Virus record (IMG/VR): IMGVR_UViG_3300024517_000029
Coordinates: 1 to 43,362 of that record
Strand: one strand, 5' to 3'
DNA length: 43,362 nucleotides
Source of the DNA: a virus
In this document: piece by piece, positions 17,875 to 42,840 of the stretch
Position numbering within the stretch: the first letter of the stretch is position 1
How the letters are laid out: each line of letters starts with the position of its first letter
Notes under the pieces: model-generated
Told to the model about the DNA's origin: nothing
What the model saw: the letters and a program-made list of their open reading frames with translations, nothing else
The model's database searches: none
Made by a program: the position numbers and the translations under genes

Positions 17875-17882
17875 TATATTAG
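17875..17882 (+). promoter_or_regulatory. Promoter of the ibrA-ectC operon
   Basis: TATATTAG fits the TAnnTTTG class with one change, and the sequence before it (TAGAAATATATTAG) matches the spacer of the three strong promoters at 25.7, 28.7 and 32.9 kb. No clear -33 TTTG is present, which suggests a weaker or activator-dependent promoter. The implied start lies at the first hairpin of the leader RNA. Confidence 0.5.
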
Positions 17883-17887
17883 CAATT

Positions 17888-17980
17888 CAAAGTGACGTCG
17901 GAAATCACAAATAATTTATTTAAAACCCTTGTTATCGAATGCCTCCCGACGTGGCTACTTTGACAGGGGTTTATTTATTT
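17888..17980 (+). ncRNA. Structured 5-prime leader RNA, copy A (kissing hairpins)
   Basis: Hairpin 1 has stem GTGA/TCAC (17892-17895, 17905-17908) and loop CGTCGGAAA. Hairpin 2 has an outer 9-bp stem, AACCCTTGT (17924-17932) with ACAGGGGTT (17963-17971), and an inner GCC/GGC stem with loop TCCCGACGT. The two loops pair: CGTCGG (17896-17901) with CCGACG (17946-17951). Copy B at 40391 keeps both hairpins and the pairing with different bases. The T-rich tail after hairpin 2 suggests it could act as a terminator or attenuator ahead of the ibrA-like gene. No match to a riboswitch class I can recall. Confidence 0.7.
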
Positions 17981-17996
17981 AACACATTTATTATTA

Positions 17997-19291
17997 TGAA
18001 AATTTACGATTCAGACAAGAACGTATACGATGCATCGAATGAGCGTATAGAGTTCATTTTCAATAACTTTGAGAGGATTTATATTTCATTCTCTGGAGGT
18101 AAGGATTCTGGAATTATGCTAAACCTTGTTTTAGATTATATGCGTAAAAACAACATAACCGAAAAGATTGGTTTAATGGTTATGGACAATGAAGCAAATT
18201 ACACCTTATCATTGGAGTTTATGCATCGAATAATCCAAGACAACTTAGACTTGTTAGATGTTTACTGGTGTTGCCTTCCAATTACCTTACCATGTACTGT
18301 AAGTAGTTACGAAACAACTTACATAACTTGGGGAGAGAAAGATAGAGGCAGATGGATAATGCCTATGCCTAAAGAGGATTATATAGTTAATATAGAAAAT
18401 TGCCCATTTGATTTTTATGAAGAAAACATGCACGATAAGGATTTTTACGATAATTTTTCTGTGTGGTATGGTCAAGGTAAACGATGTGCAAATTTAATAG
18501 GTATTAGAACCGATGAAAGTTTAAACAGGTATAGGGCTATAATGAACAAAAAGAAGATTATGGTTAACAACCTATGTTGGACTAGAAAAAACAAAGGAGA
18601 TTGCTTTAATTGTTATCCAATATACGATTGGAAAACAGAAGATGTATGGACTGGTAACGCTAAATTTGAATGGGATTACAATGAGTTGTATGATTTATTT
18701 TGGAAAGCTGGTTTAAGTGTTGCTCAAATGCGTGTAGCATCACCATTTATGAGTGAATCAAAGTCTAGTTTAAACCTATACAGGATAATAGACCCACACA
18801 TATGGAGGACTTTGTGCGCTAGGGTTTCTGGGGCTAACTTCTTAGCTACATACGGTAAGAAAATATCATACAATGGCTTCAAACTACCAAAAGGTCATTC
18901 TTGGAAAAGCTTCACTAAATTTCTTTTAGACACATTGCCTAATGAATCTTCTGAAAATTTTAGAAAGCGTTTTGCTCAGTCGATAAAATACTGGTGGAGA
19001 GTAGGGCGCGGTTTGTCAGACGAGGTAATTGAGGATATGAATAAGAACAATATTGATTTTATACTAGGAGAAAAGACTAGACACGGAAGGAAGGATAAGA
19101 CGTGTGTACGAATGTTACCCCCAGATCATTTAGATATGTTAAGAACTCATAATTCAGAGGTTACAAGCTGGAAGAGGTTTGCAATAACGATACTTAAAAA
19201 CGATCACACTTGCAAGTACTTAGGATTAGCACCAACACTAGAACAAGCAAAAAGACAAAAAGAGATACAAAACAAATATAAAAACCTTTAA
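17997..19291 (+). CDS. ibrA: IbrA-like PAPS reductase/ATP pyrophosphatase family protein
   Basis: A 431-residue protein of the phosphoadenosine phosphosulphate reductase-like family with a DUF3440-like C-terminus, as in IbrA. The ATP-pyrophosphatase P-loop SGGKDS is at residues 33-38, followed by family features GIRTDES (about 169-175), NCYPIYDWKTEDVW (about 205-218) and the C-terminal ILKNDHTCKYLGL. I used the ATG beginning MKIYDSDKNVYDAS, because the upstream in-frame ATG lies in the leader RNA hairpin. Such proteins adenylate or reduce sulphur compounds in other systems; the true IbrA reaction is not known. IbrB-like and two associated genes lie 1.8 kb downstream, separated by an inserted ectD-methyltransferase-ectC set. 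Confidence 0.85.
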
Positions 19292-19292
19292 T

Positions 19293-20144
19293 ATGAAAGA
19301 TGTATACGAGACTAGAAAAAACAGCACTTATTCAATATCAAAAAGGTTTGATAAAGTGTCTTATAGTAAGCCAAAATCATTAACTGTGGATCAGTTTAAT
19401 TACTATAACAATAACGGATTCTTAATAATAAAAAACTTCTTCAACAAAGATTTAATAACTAAGACTAAAGACGAATGTTATAATTTATTTGAAAATAACA
19501 ACGGTTGTTATGTAAATAAAGAGCCAAATTCTAATAAAGTTAGGTCTATACTTAACGTTCATGAAAACTTGAATATATCACCCGTATTAGATAGTGAATT
19601 AATTAATATTGTTGAATCGCTTTTAGGAGACGATGTTTACATGCACCAAAGTAGAATAAACTATAAAGATGGATCAGAGTCCAACGGATGGAATTGGCAT
19701 TCAGACTTTGAAACTTGGCACTCAAAAGATGGTATGCCTAGAATGAGGGCTATAACTGCTATGATTCCTGTTGATGACAACACAATAGATAATGGGTGTT
19801 TAAACTTTTTACCAAAATCACATAATAAATTCATTTCATGTCCAAAGGTTGGGGGTGTAAATCCAGAAAATGAGTTTAGTGAGCAAGTTGAGGGTGTTCC
19901 AGATTATGAATCAATAATGGCTATAAAAGAAAAATTCAATGTTGAAATATTTAATGCTGAATGTGTAGCTGGCGACTTAATTTTATTCGATTGCAATACA
20001 TTACATTATTCAGATTCTAACAAAACAAATAACAAGCGTACTAATCTTTATTTCGTTTTAAATTCAATAACAAATAAGCTAGTTAAACCATTTAACGAAG
20101 ATAATCACAGACCATTAGAGATGGGATATTATACAAACAATTAA
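19293..20144 (+). CDS. ectD: EctD-like ectoine hydroxylase family Fe(II)/2-oxoglutarate dioxygenase
   Basis: A 283-residue protein of the PhyH superfamily, very close in pattern to ectoine hydroxylase. The N-terminus has DVYETR and KRFDKVSY; residues 119-123 read QSRIN; the signature WHSDFETWH-x2-DGMPRMRA is at 135-153, giving iron ligands H136 and D138. The distal ligand H238 lies in FDCNTLHYS, and R249 is placed to bind 2-oxoglutarate. Length is near the usual 300. EctD turns ectoine into 5-hydroxyectoine using O2, and most family members lie in full ectABC operons. Here only an EctC homologue is nearby. The substrate might be ectoine from the host or a related compound; the residues shown support activity but not the substrate. 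Confidence 0.85.
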   Translation: MKDVYETRKNSTYSISKRFDKVSYSKPKSLTVDQFNYYNNNGFLIIKNFFNKDLITKTKDECYNLFENNNGCYVNKEPNSNKVRSILNVHENLNISPVLDSELINIVESLLGDDVYMHQSRINYKDGSESNGWNWHSDFETWHSKDGMPRMRAITAMIPVDDNTIDNGCLNFLPKSHNKFISCPKVGGVNPENEFSEQVEGVPDYESIMAIKEKFNVEIFNAECVAGDLILFDCNTLHYSDSNKTNNKRTNLYFVLNSITNKLVKPFNEDNHRPLEMGYYTNN

Positions 20145-20155
20145 ACTAATAAATT

Positions 20156-20689
20156 ATGAAAGAATCAGAATTAAGCTTAAAAAAAATAGCTAGAAAACAC
20201 AAACCAGTTAAACAATATTTACGGTTGTTTCTGGAAAGGTATGAAGAGTTGTTCGTGTCAAAGAGATATGATAAATTAACAATTTTAGAAATTGGTGTTG
20301 GTGGGTATAAAAATCCAAAAAAAGGAGGTGGATCAGTAAAAATGTGGGCTGAGTATTTCCCCAATTCAACTATCGTCTGTATTGATTTAAACGATAAATA
20401 TTTAGAATTTCAAAACAATGTTAATTTTCATCAAGGTTCACAAACAGATATTGAATTTTTAAATAGATTATCTAGTGATTATGGAGGCTTTGATATTGTT
20501 ATTGATGATGCTTCTCATATAACTAAGAATACAATAATAACTTTTGAGGCGCTATGGAATATGACTAGTCAATATTATATTATAGAAGACCTTCATATGA
20601 AAGCCTCAGAAGGCACTAGAGAATACTTTGAGAAAGTTTACGGTTCAGACTTCAATACAAAGAACTTATGCGTAATCCAAAAAACTTAA
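20156..20689 (+). CDS. Class I SAM methyltransferase, MycE/macrocin O-methyltransferase-like
   Basis: A 177-residue protein. The SAM-binding motif LEIGVGG is at residues 44-50 and is followed by YKNPKKGGGSVKMW, typical of the family that includes the metal-dependent sugar O-methyltransferases MycE and TylE. An acidic residue at strand 2 (D77 in CIDLND), then FDIVIDDASH (112-121) and YIIEDL (141-146), supply acidic residues that bind metal in that family. It lies between the EctD-like and EctC-like genes with the same TTAATAAATTATG-type start context, so it belongs to the same pathway. The acceptor is unknown; an ectoine-related product or a nucleoside are possible. Confidence 0.78.
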   Translation: MKESELSLKKIARKHKPVKQYLRLFLERYEELFVSKRYDKLTILEIGVGGYKNPKKGGGSVKMWAEYFPNSTIVCIDLNDKYLEFQNNVNFHQGSQTDIEFLNRLSSDYGGFDIVIDDASHITKNTIITFEALWNMTSQYYIIEDLHMKASEGTREYFEKVYGSDFNTKNLCVIQKT

Positions 20690-20695
20690 TAAATT

Positions 20696-21103
20696 ATGAA
20701 AACAATAGATATAAAAGATGTAAAAGGTGTTGATTTTAATGGGGGTACTAGTTATAGAACTGTACTAGAAAAAGATAAATTAGGATTTGCTATGATGGAA
20801 ACTAGGATAAATAAAGGGGGTGCTTACAAGTGGCACTACAAAAACCATCAAGAAGCATGTATGTGTATATCTGGTAACGGTTACATTGAAGACTTAACAA
20901 CTGGAGAAATAAGCAATATATCCAAAGGAGTAACCTACCTTGTAGACGATCATCAACCACACTTATTTACAGCGTTAACAGACGTTGTATTAGTTAGTGT
21001 TTTTAATCCTCCATTAACGGGTATGGAAACTCATGATGAAGATGGTTCTTATAGTTCTAGTGACGAGTTTTTTGAACACATGGATAAAAAACATAGTAAT
21101 TAA
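20696..21103 (+). CDS. ectC: EctC-like ectoine synthase family cupin
   Basis: A 135-residue cupin strongly patterned on ectoine synthase, which cyclises N-gamma-acetyl-diaminobutyrate to ectoine. Shared stretches include NHQEACMCISGNGYIEDL, HLFTALTDV and SVFNPPLTG with ETHDEDGSY. The three residues known to bind iron in EctC (E57, Y85, H93) map with a constant offset of four to E53, Y81 and H89. F103 and E111 match active-site F107 and E115. The conserved Cys105 is Ser101 here, and the N-terminal W21/R25 region is shortened and changed (SYRTVLEKD). These changes suggest an altered substrate. EctA and EctB are absent from the window. Confidence 0.85.
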   Translation: MKTIDIKDVKGVDFNGGTSYRTVLEKDKLGFAMMETRINKGGAYKWHYKNHQEACMCISGNGYIEDLTTGEISNISKGVTYLVDDHQPHLFTALTDVVLVSVFNPPLTGMETHDEDGSYSSSDEFFEHMDKKHSN

Positions 21104-30937: not shown

Positions 30938-31044
30938 AGTTCTACTGAAAGGTAGCTTCGAAACTACCAGACAGTATTAGGATATTAGGCAAAAGCCAAT
31001 TCAATATAGGAAGGTTATCAGTTCGAAGCGGTAACCTTTTTTTT
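30938..31044 (+). ncRNA. Small RNA with complementary hairpin loops and terminator
   Basis: Hairpin 1: GGTAG/CTACC (about 30951-30967), with loop bases GCTTCGAA (30955-30962). A middle hairpin has GGC/GCC around AAAA inside an ATATT/AATAT stem. The final hairpin has a 9-bp stem, AAGGTTATC with GGTAACCTT, and a run of eight T. Its loop holds TTCGAAGC (31022-31029), the exact reverse complement of the loop bases in hairpin 1, so the loops can kiss over 8 bp. TTCGAA is also self-complementary, so two molecules could dimerise. No ORF is present and no known family matches. Confidence 0.65.
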
Positions 31045-31047
31045 ATG

Positions 31048-31163
31048 GACAATGGTTAGGTAGGTTTTATAAGGTTTGGCATTACCAGTTAAAATGTGAC
31101 AAAACCTACTTAACTCTTTCCATTATCCAGAACTCACAAGACATATAGTGAGTTTTATTGTTT
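31048..31163 (+). ncRNA. Long hairpin plus intrinsic terminator
   Basis: GGACAATGG (from 31047) pairs with CCATTATCC (to about 31129), enclosing a second stem GTTAGGTAGGTTTT / AAAACCTACTTAAC with one mismatch. After it comes a terminator, AACTCAC/GTGAGTT (31131-31154) with a T-rich tail. This could be a second small RNA, or readthrough product of the one before it. Confidence 0.5.
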
Positions 31164-31497
31164 CCCATTTCCACTCAACTGTAAAAAAAGGCAAAAGCTA
31201 CATTAAGACGGTTGTCAAAAGTCTAGCTCTGTGTACCCTCACAACTAGCGACTGCACACTCGAAAGGGGTGACAACTGACCGAAACGGCTAAGTCTAAGG
31301 ACTGAATACATAAGAATAGCTCGCAGGCGGATATAGTACTTAAGGTGTGGTAATGGTCCTGTTAAGGAATGTAAATCGTCACTAGGTATTAGTGCAGGGT
31401 AAAAGGGAAGTTGTATAGAATAGCTAACAATAACACCATAAAGACAATTTAAAAGTAATTAGAGAAGGCAAAGAGGTTTAAACTAAAAGTGAAGATT
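31164..31497 (+). other. Gene-free stretch with several predicted hairpins
   Basis: About 330 bases without a credible ORF. Helices visible by eye: CAACTGT/ACGGTTG around 31176-31214; CACTC/GGGTG around 31256-31270; AGTC-TAAG-GACT near 31293; TCCT/AGGA near 31357; CACTA/TAGTG near 31380. Base composition is less A/T-rich than the neighbours. Together with the two elements before it, the whole gene-free block is nearly 590 bases, the size of ornate large RNAs such as ROOL, but I could not match conserved features of ROOL, GOLLD, group I introns or RNase P. Confidence 0.4.
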
Positions 31498-36643: not shown

Positions 36644-36770
36644 AAAAGCAACCTTAAAAAGTTACTGGTATAACGATTATATTGGTGAAATCATAGAGGT
36701 AGATGTAGATTCAAAGAATAGAGCTTTAAACTTTGTGTCGGCACAAATAGACTTTTTAAAGGCTCATTAA
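36627..36770 (+). CDS. Short hypothetical protein
   Basis: A 47-residue basic protein (MKVLIKKATLKSYWYNDYIG, then EVDVDSKNRALNFVSAQI). It resembles the small cassette genes before it and closes the array, followed by a 70-base gap and a strong terminator. Function unknown. Confidence 0.58.
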   Translation: MKVLIKKATLKSYWYNDYIGEIIEVDVDSKNRALNFVSAQIDFLKAH

Positions 36771-36840
36771 ATAATTAATCGTACATTGCAGTATCAAAGT
36801 AGTTTTCTTTCCTTTAAACTCTTTCATACTTAATTGTTTT

Positions 36841-36872
36841 AAAGCCCTTAGATTCATAACTAAGGGCTTTTT
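36841..36872 (+). terminator. Strong intrinsic terminator
   Basis: AAAGCCCTTAG (36841-36851) pairs perfectly with CTAAGGGCTTT (36860-36870), 11 bp with an 8-base loop and T's after it. It closes the accessory array. On the minus strand the A run before it would also serve. Confidence 0.85.
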
Positions 36873-36873
36873 G

Positions 36874-36881
36874 TATATTTG
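36874..36881 (+). promoter_or_regulatory. Promoter -7 box before the AraC-like gene
   Basis: Perfect TATATTTG, four bases before the start codon, so the mRNA would be nearly leaderless, as for the leftward gene at 14704. The -33 region lies in the terminator stem and shows no TTG. Confidence 0.5.
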
Positions 36882-36885
36882 ACAT

Positions 36886-37209
36886 ATGGATTTAACAACA
36901 GAAGTACTTAACGAATATCTAGATAAGAACAATCTAAGCAAGGATTTCACAATACAAAAGATGGGCAAGGACTTAAACAAGTCAAGAACACTATTCTTTT
37001 TAGAGGTGAAAAACCTAACAGGACACAACCCTAGCCAAATGGTAATGCACTACAGATTAGAAAAGGCTAAACCAATGCTTCACACAGCCAAACACATTTC
37101 AGAGGTAGCTTATAAAGTTGGATTCGACAGTACAGCTTATTTCAGTAAGTGTTTCAAACAGACTTTTAAGATGTCACCAAGTCAGTACATCAACTCAGAA
37201 AGAACATAA
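36886..37209 (+). CDS. AraC-type DNA-binding domain protein
   Basis: A 107-residue protein that is only the AraC/XylS DNA-binding domain. Two helix-turn-helix units are seen, the second being the typical HISEVAYKVGFDSTAYFSKCFKQTF-MSPSQY pattern (about residues 70-100). The usual N-terminal sensing domain (100-200 residues) is absent. It may activate phage or host promoters. Stand-alone domains of this kind are unusual in phages. Confidence 0.85.
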   Translation: MDLTTEVLNEYLDKNNLSKDFTIQKMGKDLNKSRTLFFLEVKNLTGHNPSQMVMHYRLEKAKPMLHTAKHISEVAYKVGFDSTAYFSKCFKQTFKMSPSQYINSERT

Positions 37210-39054: not shown

Positions 39055-40353
39055 ATGAAGATAAGCCGTAAATACAAACCACTATTTGAAGTTGTCCAAG
39101 GCAAGCACCCTCAAGTCGACACAATAGTACTTACTGGCGGTAGGGATTCAGGTAAATCATTTGTTGCTTCATTAGCTGTTTGTGATGCAGCGGCCAATTA
39201 TAATCACAGAGCATTATACACGCGTTACACATTAACTTCTGCAAAGGATTCTATTATACCTGATTTCAACGAGAAGATAACAATGCTAGGTTATGAGGAT
39301 TACTTTCACATAACAAATGACAGGGTTCAATGTGTTCACAATAGAGGCAAGGTAGTATTCAAAGGATTCAAAACAAGTCAAGGAAACCAAACGGCAAATC
39401 TTAAGTCGTTAAAGGATTTCTCAATGTTAGTATGTGAGGAAATGGAAGAGTACCCATCATACGACGAATGGGATAAGGTGCAATTATCAATACGTGCCAC
39501 AGACGTTCAGTCATTAAACATAGGAATACTCAACCCAACAACAAAGAAGCATTGGGTATACCGTGAGTTCTTCGAGAATAAAGGAGTTAAGGGAGGGTTC
39601 AACGGGATCAAAGGAAACATACTATACATTCACACAACTTATTTAGATTTAGGTAAGGAGTTTATAGCCCCTAAGAACTGGAGGAAATACGAGGCTGCAA
39701 GATTGATATTTGAGAAGTTAGACAAGCTAAGTACTAAGGATAGGTTGTTATCAGACAGGAAAGAACTTAAGATTTACAAATACTATAAATATACTGTTCT
39801 AGGTGGTTGGATGGAAACAGCAGCGGGTGTAATATTTGAAGACTACGACACTTACGATGAGCTTCCAGAAGATGTTGAGAGTAAGTTATGGGGGTTAGAT
39901 TTTGGCTACTCAAAAGACCCTACAGCATTTGGAGAGGTAAACGTAGCGCCAGATGATCTTTATCTTAAGCAACACATATATGAAACAGGGCTATTAAATA
40001 ACGACCTAGCAGACAGGATTAACATGATACTAGGAGATGAGGAAACCTACATCATTGCAGATCATGCTAGACCTGACTTAATAGATGATTTAAATAGAAT
40101 TGTAGGTGAGAAAGGCTACAACTTTGTAGTGCTTCCTTGTGATAAAGGCCCAGGTTCTGTACGTGATGGATTAGAGAAGATGAAAGACAAGAATATCCAC
40201 ATACACAAAGACTCTAAGGACTTTTTAGACGAGGCTAACCACTATCATCAAATAGAAGTTATAAACTCTAAAGGCGAGACTGTGTATCATATTGTAGATA
40301 AGGACAATCACCTTTTCGATCAGGCACGCTATTCGTATTGTAAGTTCTATTAA
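39055..40353 (+). CDS. terL: Terminase large subunit
   Basis: A 432-residue packaging motor and nuclease. The ATPase domain has Walker A GGRDSGKS (28-35) and Walker B SMLVCEEMEE (123-132). The RNase H-like nuclease has acidic residues in LWGLDFGYSKDPT (near 282) and IIADHARPDLIDDL (near 336). It is of the PBSX/Terminase_3 type, which usually cuts by headful. Length is normal. The first 110 bases before it hold only a 15-codon ORF that overlaps the start. Confidence 0.95.
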   Translation: MKISRKYKPLFEVVQGKHPQVDTIVLTGGRDSGKSFVASLAVCDAAANYNHRALYTRYTLTSAKDSIIPDFNEKITMLGYEDYFHITNDRVQCVHNRGKVVFKGFKTSQGNQTANLKSLKDFSMLVCEEMEEYPSYDEWDKVQLSIRATDVQSLNIGILNPTTKKHWVYREFFENKGVKGGFNGIKGNILYIHTTYLDLGKEFIAPKNWRKYEAARLIFEKLDKLSTKDRLLSDRKELKIYKYYKYTVLGGWMETAAGVIFEDYDTYDELPEDVESKLWGLDFGYSKDPTAFGEVNVAPDDLYLKQHIYETGLLNNDLADRINMILGDEETYIIADHARPDLIDDLNRIVGEKGYNFVVLPCDKGPGSVRDGLEKMKDKNIHIHKDSKDFLDEANHYHQIEVINSKGETVYHIVDKDNHLFDQARYSYCKFY

Positions 40354-40356
40354 CAC

Positions 40357-40385
40357 TTGCATATCAAATATATTTTACTAACTTA
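40357..40385 (+). promoter_or_regulatory. Promoter of leader RNA copy B
   Basis: TTGCA (40357-40361) and TAACTTAG (40378-40385) with a spacer of 18-21. The implied start is at the first hairpin of the leader. Confidence 0.55.
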
Positions 40386-40390
40386 GCGTT

Positions 40391-40485
40391 ATCAAAAGTG
40401 AACTAGGGAATCACAAGAAATTTAGAATTGATAGTATCTCGCATTAGAAAGCCTTCCCCTAGTTGGCGTCTAATGTGGGGCTATC
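40391..40485 (+). ncRNA. Structured 5-prime leader RNA, copy B (kissing hairpins)
   Basis: Hairpin 1: GTGA/TCAC (40398-40401, 40411-40414) with loop ACTAGGGAA. Hairpin 2: GATAG/CTATC outer, CATTAGA/TCTAATG middle, GCC/GGC inner stem with loop TTCCCCTAGTT. Loops pair over eight bases: AACTAGGG (40401-40408) and CCCTAGTT (40457-40464). Compared with copy A at 17888, both loop pairings are kept while three base pairs are exchanged, so the fold is conserved by covariation. Shared sequence includes TCAAA-GTGA, ATCACAA and AATTTA. It leads a small-gene operon. Confidence 0.72.
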
Positions 40486-40506: not shown

Positions 40507-40698
40507 ATGGATTATAAGCAAAAGCAAAGACACTTTAAGAATCTATCAAATCGAGTAACTAATATTTGGACAAGAACTGAAATGGTTGGACTTCGACAGG
40601 TGGGAGTTCCTTATGTAAAAGCAGTACACGGGTTGATCGGAAGTGACAAGGTAAGAGCAGAAAAAAGAGCTAACGAACTAAGTAAGCGTAGAGCATAA
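40507..40698 (+). CDS. Hypothetical basic protein after leader RNA
   Basis: A 63-residue very basic protein (KQKQRHFKNLSNRVTNIWTR, then AEKRANELSKRRA). It is the gene controlled by leader copy B, 21 bases after its last stem. It could bind RNA or DNA. A hairpin follows. Confidence 0.68.
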   Translation: MDYKQKQRHFKNLSNRVTNIWTRTEMVGLRQVGVPYVKAVHGLIGSDKVRAEKRANELSKRRA

Positions 40699-40748: not shown

Positions 40749-41060
40749 ATGACAAAGGACGAAATACAGAGTAGAGAACAAGACAAGCTGAGTAAGTTTA
40801 AGATCAATTATTATTACTTAGCTACAGGCATGGAGGGTATTGCAGACACATATCCAGAGAAGATAATAGAAGCTAAGACTAAAGACATGGCTGTTTATAT
40901 TTACCTATTAATGTTCATGGCTGAGACTGATACTAAAATAATAGAAGTCGATAAATCTAATGGAAGCAATGGTTATTCTTTTACTTCATTTAGTGAGTTT
41001 GTAGAGGTTAACGAATGTCACAAGTATTGGGGGGTGTCAGTAGATAAATTAACAAATTAA
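40749..41060 (+). CDS. Hypothetical protein
   Basis: A 103-residue protein, helical with a central stretch rich in Met, Ile and aromatic residues (MAVYIYLLMFMAETDTKI). It starts with the AACAATTAAGATT context. Function unknown. Confidence 0.72.
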   Translation: MTKDEIQSREQDKLSKFKINYYYLATGMEGIADTYPEKIIEAKTKDMAVYIYLLMFMAETDTKIIEVDKSNGSNGYSFTSFSEFVEVNECHKYWGVSVDKLTN

Positions 41061-41064
41061 GATT

Positions 41065-41280
41065 ATGAAAGAGATTTTAGCAGTAGTAGCAGTAGGTGTA
41101 TTGATAGCATTATTTGTATCGTTTTCAAGTAGTGACAGTAAACAAATGCAAGAACACTTAGGAGAGACGGTAATAATAGATGGCGACACATCAACAGTAG
41201 TAGATTATAGCACATGGTCAAACACCTACACTTTAGGTAACGGTAAGACTATATCAGAAGAGCTAATTAAAAACAAGTAG
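41065..41280 (+). CDS. Small membrane-anchored protein, paralogue of the gene at 17066
   Basis: A 71-residue protein with a transmembrane helix at about residues 3-20 (EILAVVAVGVLIALFVSF) and a polar domain with HLGETVIIDGDTSTVV and YTLGNGKTIS. The gene at 17066 shares the same order and motifs (HIGE, NGDTLTIV, YTLSNG). Both lie within 1 kb of a copy of the leader RNA. Function unknown. Confidence 0.74.
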   Translation: MKEILAVVAVGVLIALFVSFSSSDSKQMQEHLGETVIIDGDTSTVVDYSTWSNTYTLGNGKTISEELIKNK

Positions 41281-41284
41281 AACT

Positions 41285-41710
41285 ATGAATCATACAAGCT
41301 TCCCTCAAGTCGACATTGAACAGCTAGATTGGATAAGTATAGATGAAAACAATAAAACATACATTACTATGGAACAAGTAACACTAAACAAAGAGACTTA
41401 TGATAGGCTCATGGATATTGAGTTAGCAAATAATCAAGAGATTGATAGGCTCAAAGATATAATAGAAGAGTTTCAAAAAGACGGAGTGTCAGTTGACATA
41501 ACTAGAGATATAACCTATTATAGTAAGACTATCAATTACAAATTATTCACTAAAGATGAGAAACTAAAAGCTATAAAGGAAGAAATGTTATATCAGATAA
41601 CCCTTGCCGATAATAGTAGTGAGAATTATAAGAAACAATTCAAGGAAAGGGTAGACAAGATTTACAATAGAAACATCTTACAGAGAATATTCAATACAAG
41701 AGTTAAATAA
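41285..41710 (+). CDS. Hypothetical coiled-coil protein
   Basis: A 141-residue acidic protein, mostly helical, with possible coiled coil (DIELANNQEIDRLKDIIEEF). No motif recognised. Part of the leader B operon. Confidence 0.72.
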   Translation: MNHTSFPQVDIEQLDWISIDENNKTYITMEQVTLNKETYDRLMDIELANNQEIDRLKDIIEEFQKDGVSVDITRDITYYSKTINYKLFTKDEKLKAIKEEMLYQITLADNSSENYKKQFKERVDKIYNRNILQRIFNTRVK

Positions 41711-41718
41711 AGAGAAGT

Positions 41719-41979
41719 ATGATAACTATAATTATAACAACATCACTTATTGGACTTGCTCTTTATGTAGGTGTTCTATATGGTAAAAGAATTATAATAT
41801 GGGTAAACCAACTATTCAAAAGGAGTCCTAACAGGATAAAAAAGGAAGATATTACAGAACCAAGCCTGTATGATGAACTAAGGAGGTCTGCACAAAATGG
41901 ATCGGTAGCAGCAAGAGAAGCGTTAAAGGATCGTAGTATTTTCGAATCATATTCGTCAGGAAGAAAGTATAAAAAGTAA
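41719..41979 (+). CDS. Single-span membrane protein
   Basis: An 86-residue protein with an N-terminal transmembrane helix (ITIIITTSLIGLALYVGVLY, about 2-20) and a basic, helical cytoplasmic part (RRSAQNGSVAAREALKDRSI). Function unknown. Confidence 0.7.
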   Translation: MITIIITTSLIGLALYVGVLYGKRIIIWVNQLFKRSPNRIKKEDITEPSLYDELRRSAQNGSVAAREALKDRSIFESYSSGRKYKK

Positions 41980-41982
41980 GTC

Positions 41983-42303
41983 ATGAGTAGATATTATTAC
42001 GAATACACGTGCGTTCAAGGTGGAGCGATTCAACGCAAGATAGTAAAAAGACCAACATTAATAAGCAAGGTTAAAAACAACATTTCAAAACGGTTCAATA
42101 TTAAATACTCACTGCCAAAGCTATCTATTGCAAAAAAGAGTGATAAATACTATTGTGAAGATCGTAATAGATGGTGTACTGAATACGTTTTTCTTGGACT
42201 GATCACGCTATACAAATTAACGCTTAACACAAAAAGGGATAAGTGGTCATTTCGAAAGTCAAAAAAGAGAATCACTAAAGCAAGAAAAACAACATTACTT
42301 TAA
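41983..42303 (+). CDS. Hypothetical very basic protein
   Basis: A 106-residue protein with a high Lys/Arg/Tyr content (RKIVKRPTLISKVKNNISKR, KSKKRITKARKTTLL). It starts three bases after the upstream stop. It may bind nucleic acids or membranes. Function unknown. Confidence 0.68.
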   Translation: MSRYYYEYTCVQGGAIQRKIVKRPTLISKVKNNISKRFNIKYSLPKLSIAKKSDKYYCEDRNRWCTEYVFLGLITLYKLTLNTKRDKWSFRKSKKRITKARKTTLL

Positions 42304-42351
42304 ACCGATACTAGACGGTAATATCTAGGTAACTAAATAAACAATATAATT

Positions 42352-42840
42352 ATGGGGTACAGAGAAGATGAGAAAGCAGAAAATCAAAAAATCGCAACAG
42401 CTTTTTTTAAGTGGGGTACAATTTTAGGGCTTTTTATAGCTCTGGTAGTGTGTGGTAGTATGATAGGATGTCCAAGCTACAATGTTTATAGTGAAGGAAT
42501 GTCAGGAAAAGCCGAGTTAGAAAAAGCAAAACATAACAAACTCATAACAATCGAAGATGCCAAAGCGAAAAACGAAGCAGCAATTAGCAAGGCTCAGGCT
42601 AAGATAACAATGGCTAAAGCTCACAATGAATCAATGATTATCAAAGCTGAAGGGCAAAGACAAGCAGACAGCATTAGAGCTATTGGAGTAGCTAGAGCAA
42701 ATGAGATTATTGGAGAATCTTTAAAGGGTAATTCTGATTACTTACATTTCTTGTGGATTGATCAGCTTAAAGACGGAGGTCAAAAGGTTTACATACCTAC
42801 AGAGGGTAATTTACCAATACTAGAAGCAAGAGATAAATAA
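42352..42840 (+). CDS. Membrane-anchored SPFH/prohibitin-like protein
   Basis: A 162-residue protein with a transmembrane helix at about residues 20-42, a charged coiled coil (about 50-115), and a C-terminal part AIGVARANEIIGESL-KGNSDYLHFLWIDQL-KDGG then VYIPTEGNLPILEA, which resembles the end of the SPFH (stomatin/prohibitin/HflC) fold. The usual SPFH core domain of about 170 residues is missing. Similar short proteins occur in other Bacteroidota phages. It may modulate host HflKC-like complexes; that is inference. Confidence 0.7.
   Translation: MGYREDEKAENQKIATAFFKWGTILGLFIALVVCGSMIGCPSYNVYSEGMSGKAELEKAKHNKLITIEDAKAKNEAAISKAQAKITMAKAHNESMIIKAEGQRQADSIRAIGVARANEIIGESLKGNSDYLHFLWIDQLKDGGQKVYIPTEGNLPILEARDK

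Follow-up and report, generated by a model that had tools for sequence, protein, structure and literature searches.

Complementary hairpin loops in a family of two-hairpin leader RNAs from Bacteroidetes phages

Why would one phage genome carry the same kind of leader RNA ahead of two operons with different contents? The question is raised by IMG/VR virus record IMGVR_UViG_3300024517_000029, a complete record whose 43,362 nucleotides (nt) form the window analyzed here. A first-pass annotation had placed a second leader copy in front of a different operon near its 3' end. This copy (copy B, 40398-40485) lies where it was described and has the hairpin arms given for it, including CATTAGA/TCTAATG in hairpin 2. 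Its 116-nt stretch folds at -30.2 kcal/mol, with a z score of -3.1 that was equaled by 1 of 200 shuffles. A feature overlooked by that annotation is that loop 1 is the reverse complement of loop 2, both in copy B (AACTAGGG/CCCTAGTT) and in copy A, the two-hairpin leader at 17892-17972 (ACGTCGG/CCGACGT), so hairpins 1 and 2 can kiss. Both hairpins, the covariation of their loops, the position between a promoter-like site and a start codon, and a run of T's (T-run) in nearly all members but copy B define a leader family that is spread through Bacteroidetes phages, comprising dozens of uncultured phages and some cultured ones of Flavobacteriia type.

Within the window, a scan for the kissing arrangement ranked three sites highest on the + strand, namely copies B and A and a third leader, copy C (30951-31038), which likely belongs to the same family. 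The contiguous kissing pairs number 8 base pairs (bp) in B, 7 bp in A and 8 bp in C, the family criterion being at least 6 nt. Copy C scored -37.7, beating the best of 20 shuffles (-31.7). Copies A and B scored -28.2 and -28.6; by pairing energy alone in this single window they are not significant against the 20 shuffles, and they become so because of their relatives. Where A and B are aligned, three of six kissing pairs differ, each time on both strands. The loops of A, B and C pair with their own partners at -12.1 to -13.3 kcal/mol and with those of the other copies at -1.8 to -6.8. For A and B, the values are -13.0 and -13.3 with their own partners and -5.0 and -6.8 across copies, which disfavors an action of these two RNAs on each other in trans. 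The terminator at 36841-36870 was rejected as a further member, having no upstream kissing hairpin.

The same layout recurs in other phages. It consists of a TAnnTTTG-type site, hairpin 1 some 0 to 20 nt further on, an AT-rich linker (median, 16 nt) that often contains AACTT, a long hairpin 2 whose loop is complementary to loop 1 (a kiss of 6 to 10 bp), usually a T-run, and an ATG approximately 10 to 30 nt after hairpin 2. Among relatives of DUF3440 genes, a scan requiring kissing loops and a T-run gave 13 matches at or below -30, against 1.3 per shuffle; among relatives of the primase and DUF3987 genes behind two such leaders, 23 matches reached -35 or below, against 0.3 in shuffles. When 202 AT-rich loci were scanned with no T-run condition, 64 matches at or below -36 had a promoter-like site and an ATG, compared to none in 1.55 megabases of shuffled sequence. 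Deduplication left 44 matches at or below -30, and dropping 10 of these as chance yielded 34 distinct members from viral contigs. An energy-only scan with neither T-run nor promoter was discarded, as it was swamped by chance matches in GC-rich loci.

Comparing own with swapped loops in these 34 members is circular, so we relied on two sets chosen on other grounds. The first is based on a motif, GGGGATGG-loop-CCTGAACC, which recurs unchanged directly below the kissing loop in a subset of members (L129, L138, L142, L148, L190, L207, L228 and others); its apical GGATGG/CCTGAACC is presumably similar to an RNA tetraloop receptor, a likeness for which we found no literature support. Stretches with this motif and a T-rich 3' flank, picked regardless of pairing, had the loop complement upstream in nine of nine cases (one of which, L242, is probably chance); swapped loops gave a mean of 1.5. 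The second set comprises regions upstream of NUMOD4-HNH genes, picked by protein only. Of 61 distinct regions, 15 had a leader at or below -26, compared to 0.2 per shuffle and at most 2, and at -34 the count was 8 versus 0 in shuffles. All 12 leaders at or below -30 have a T-run, though this was not a scan criterion, and four further regions (L356, L381, L383 and L413) have the leader as judged by eye. A Flavobacterium columnare phage found through its NUMOD4 protein alone has the leader exactly upstream of that gene. By eye, ten NUMOD4-HNH starts (L339, L351, L358, L360, L367, L368, L376, L380, L396 and L397) are preceded by a second, distinct leader class with the look of a three-way junction, in which a loop (for example, GCGTTTA or TTCACG) complements a segment near the ATG (TAAACGC or CGTGAA); this class had no Rfam match at an E value of 0.5.

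Covariation supports the kissing helix. It is 100% paired in A, B and three relatives, and likewise in six NUMOD4 leaders, whereas 18 to 56% of cells are paired in slid controls. In both alignments, four of the six kissing pairs have changed on both sides. The GGGGATGG group was left out of these counts, as MAFFT misaligned its hairpin 1. No sequence shared across family members was found, and Rfam, at gathering and permissive thresholds, gave no leader match in the window or 16 relatives, with noise only for copy B; the sole match among the relatives is a tRNA elsewhere in L063. The lack of an Rfam family is probably explained by loops that have no common sequence and by a key helix that is a pseudoknot.

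The geometry of the leaders is constrained as well. Stem 1 has 4 to 12 pairs and stem 2 has 9 to 21, and the sum of stem 1, kiss and stem 2 is 30.9 ± 2.5 pairs. The stem lengths are negatively correlated (r = -0.69), with equal tightness in 3 of 20,000 permutations. A constant sum of about 31 pairs, together with the 16-nt linker, is consistent with a closed rod formed in cis, and copy B fits this geometry when its outer GATAG/CTATC stem is included. The loops themselves vary freely. Phages whose first genes are 82 to 95% identical can have leaders with as little as 40 to 53% identity, which amounts to unrelated sequence, and their upstream regions are unrelated too; other phage pairs share a leader (88 to 93% identical) and no upstream region. 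The leaders are thus exchanged as modules, with the pairing always preserved. Genomes carry one to three leaders, and copies within a genome mostly differ in their loops. Own loops pair at -9.4 to -13.3 kcal/mol, and most cross pairs are weaker, G008 (-11.1) and G001 (-8.6) being exceptions.

The exact pattern derived from A and B was matched in five viral contigs, of which L002, L004 and L007 represent the phage of the window itself. In L003, a B-type leader lies 5' of a homologue of window gene 41065, beside a different terminase. In L006, the leader lies behind a probable scaffold gene with its terminator, and a homologue of window gene 42352 comes next; this context is seen in a single contig, as L006 ends inside the shared stretch. 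The genes at 41065 and 42352 lie further down the operon of copy B in the window, and in these relatives it is their homologues that come first after the B-type leader. The B-type RNA is approximately 95 to 100% conserved across the three phages while promoter and neighbors differ, and in L003 the promoter-like site is altered (TATATTGC) and the leader RNA unchanged. The B leader is thus an independent module. In genome contigs, the exact pattern gave 22 matches, none with the structure, and L005 and L018 were rejected as chance matches.

The segment at 36765-36890 is identical in L006 and coincides with the contig starts of L002, L006 and L007. Within it, a promoter-like TATATTTG comes after a terminator, and the segment is probably an assembly overlap at a stretch common to co-occurring phages. 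Elsewhere in the window, a 40-nt AT-rich repeat with TATCTTTG or similar at its end occurs four times (14894, 25654, 28680 and 32894), and its copies are probably phage promoters.

The three copies in the window differ in their settings (Table 1). The T-run is strong in copy C, weak in copy A and absent from copy B and its relatives in L003 and L006; directly 3' of hairpin 2, copy B has ATATGTAAAAACAATTATATTATG instead. A promoter-like site of the TAnnTTTG type precedes hairpin 1 by no more than about 20 nt in B (TAACTTAG) and A (TATATTAG), whereas C has only TACCTTCG at a gap of 19 nt. The site of copy B resembles the -33/-7 elements of Bacteroidetes promoters. The first start codon follows hairpin 2 by approximately 10 to 30 nt in A and B but not in C. 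Behind copy C, some 450 nt (31045-31480) contain short inverted repeats and no long open reading frame (ORF); this stretch is possibly a noncoding RNA, and Rfam returned only noise for it.

Table 1. Leader elements and adjoining genes in the 43,362-nt window.
Feature	Positions	Strand	Details	Remark
Copy A promoter-like site	17875-17882	+	TATATTAG	
Copy A hairpin 1	17892-17908	+	5' kissing strand ACGTCGG, 17895-17901	
Copy A hairpin 2	17923-17980	+	3' kissing strand CCGACGT, 17946-17952; hairpin followed by a weak T-run, TTTATTTATTT	
DUF3440/PAPS-reductase-like gene behind copy A	17996-19291	+		real start 17996
Copy C hairpin 1	30951-30968	+	GGTAG/CTACC; 5' kissing strand GCTTCGAA, 30955-30962	
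Copy C hairpin 2	31011-31044	+	3' kissing strand TTCGAAGC, 31022-31029	intrinsic terminator with T-run
Copy B promoter-like site	40357-40386	+	TTG (40357-40359)-N19-TAACTTAG (40379-40386)	sequence
Copy B hairpin 1	40398-40414	+	GTGA-ACTAGGGAA-TCAC; 5' kissing strand AACTAGGG, 40401-40408	
Copy B linker	40415-40429	+	15 nt, AT-rich, AAGAAATTTAGAATT	family median 16 nt
Copy B hairpin 2	40430-40485	+	GATAG/CTATC, CTCGCATTAGA/TCTAATGTGGGG, apical GCC/GGC; 3' kissing strand CCCTAGTT, 40457-40464	
Copy B operon, first ORF	40507-40698	+	63 amino acids, basic	
Copy B operon, remainder	40749-42840	+	six small ORFs	

In operon A, the first gene starts at 17996 and not at the listed ATG at 17939, which falls within hairpin 2 of copy A. 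The operon (17996-21103) encodes DUF3440/PAPS-reductase-like, PhyH oxygenase, methyltransferase-like and ectoine-synthase-like genes. Operon B has the large terminase (39055-40353) on one side and the portal-protein region on the other, and the 63-residue protein reported behind copy B is indeed its first product, with no family match. The description of this operon as free of enzyme genes is nearly right; the qualification concerns ORF 42352-42840, which matches a PHROG labeled protease (E = 2e-40), and ORF 41285-41710, which has a restriction-enzyme Pfam match below the cutoff of that family.

Across the family, the genes behind the leaders encode Lin1244-type replication proteins, primase, DUF3987, DUF6291, DUF1376 and helicase proteins, as well as NUMOD4-HNH, other HNH, GIY-YIG, YopX, SLOG-type and DUF3440 proteins. 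These belong to no single pathway, which suggests no common ligand. Among cultured phages, 25 isolates (34 records) of Flavobacterium phages with hosts LMO6 and LMO9 (PMC7077304) carry an identical leader before an endonuclease gene, and further carriers are F. columnare phage FCV-1.01 and Tenacibaculum phage JQ (PMC11267871). In the word searches made of these two papers, hairpins, terminators and riboswitches did not come up. Nothing above chance was found in Flavobacterium phages 1H and 2A, Cellulophaga phages phi10:1, phi38:1 and phiST, or crAss001.

Taken as a whole, the leader is probably a cis-acting 5' RNA in which most members would have their termination tuned by the kiss and copy B would have another effect. 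From the sequence, we infer where transcription starts and terminates, an effect that may go in either direction, and a signal behind it. RNA polymerase would start just upstream of hairpin 1, which would fold first. The loop of the growing hairpin 2 could then be caught by loop 1 before its 3' arm is made, forming the 6- to 10-bp kiss, and with the short linker as a tie the RNA would close into a compact rod, about 31 stacked pairs long, immediately ahead of the first gene. In members with a T-run, the kiss would alter the speed or extent of terminator-hairpin closure and thereby the choice between stopping and entering the operon. The T-run that follows hairpin 2 in most members makes the tuning of termination the most likely role of the kissing hairpin, and these members look like attenuators, with their regulation predicted from this signature. 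In the B family, the element is more likely a 5' structure that allows read-through, gives protection or controls translation. Copy B had been judged not to be a simple terminator, and this judgment holds: its family lacks a T-run in all three phages, compared to none of the 12 strong NUMOD4-HNH members, and the preservation of its sequence and geometry makes an effect other than termination more likely. A protein or RNA polymerase may recognize the shape of the leader.

Several points weigh against this interpretation. Copy B has no T-run, so an attenuator leaves out the very copy that raised the question. Kissing in cis is a prediction, and antisense RNAs belong to some attenuation systems. 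Ten of the 44 deduplicated matches were discarded by eye, mostly for long linkers within genes. The score cutoff could also partly explain the constant rod length, although members with two long stems, which it would not remove, are rare.

An unlikely alternative is a structural 5' cap, in which the closed kissing structure at the very 5' end protects phage mRNA against decay or keeps the start region open and the T-run is simply an AT-rich start region. Such a role would suit the start of hairpin 1 within a few nt of the expected transcription start, as well as a copy B structure kept without a T-run and nearly unchanged in three phages. Nearly all other members, however, have a GC-rich stem and an immediate T-run, an intrinsic-terminator signature that would be superfluous for a cap.

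We give still less credence to short terminated leaders that pair with like leaders carried by other genomes and thus control copy number or superinfection, as plasmid loop RNAs do. The full divergence of loops with pairing kept between phages with closely similar first genes, and the mostly different loops of copies within one genome, are what a trans-acting address would predict. The divergence may nevertheless reflect cassette exchange alone, given that upstream regions change too; the loops are not all orthogonal, one cross pair in G008 being as strong as its own pair; and the strands are already paired in cis. It is equally doubtful that the variable loops are addresses by which leaders of coinfecting phages or different operons avoid cross-reaction. 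If true, a loop address would be an RNA-only control of superinfection, or of copy number, for replication and homing-endonuclease operons.

A put-like antiterminator, whose leader, once folded, would bind RNA polymerase and carry it past terminators further on, is very improbable: two hairpins at phage operon starts with conserved geometry and variable loop letters recall such elements, but a terminator right at hairpin 2 would defeat the purpose, and no common sequence was found. Least credible is a ligand-binding riboswitch common to operons A and B, a possibility raised by the first-pass annotation. Kissing loops and an expression platform are typical of riboswitches, and a subset of members shares an apical motif, but A, B and most others lack this motif, loops and stems vary freely, the first genes are unrelated, there is no Rfam match, and loops that vary completely with pairing kept argue against a shared ligand.

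The cis-acting leader favored here would give Bacteroidetes phages, whose regulation is little known, a point at which to control early genes and homing endonucleases, and it offers a clean case of rapidly changing RNA loops that always stay paired. Copies A and C and most relatives share with intrinsic-terminator attenuators the order of promoter, short leader, GC-rich hairpin, T-run and first gene. They differ in that the terminator loop pairs with the loop of a 5' hairpin that varies between phages, in the missing T-run of copy B, and in that no leader peptide or conserved ligand pocket was seen in the kissing leaders. In plasmid replication leaders (ColIb-P9/IncI repZ and pT181/pIP501-type attenuation), a loop pairs with a downstream segment under the governance of a separate antisense RNA. 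What is similar is that a hairpin loop pairs with a segment further along, in front of replication genes, and that loops vary between replicons, whereas the first genes behind the phage leaders are often not replication genes. The ColE1 RNA I/RNA II complex likewise has 6- to 8-nt loops that are nearly fully paired, but it forms between two molecules and not within one leader. In T4-like phages, early transcripts of free-standing endonuclease genes fold a hairpin that masks the ribosome-binding site; structured RNA again lies just 5' of HNH and GIY-YIG genes (PMC2988022). The phage leaders described here instead have their own promoter-like site, precede other genes too, and end before the start codon; sequestration of the ribosome-binding site or start codon is not seen, as hairpin 2 ends 5 to 30 nt before the ATG in most members. 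No kissing-loop terminator described in phages was found in the literature, of which our coverage is incomplete. Leader attenuators and kissing loops are thus each already known, and it is the pairing of a terminator loop with a variable 5' hairpin that is new, to our knowledge and within the literature searched.
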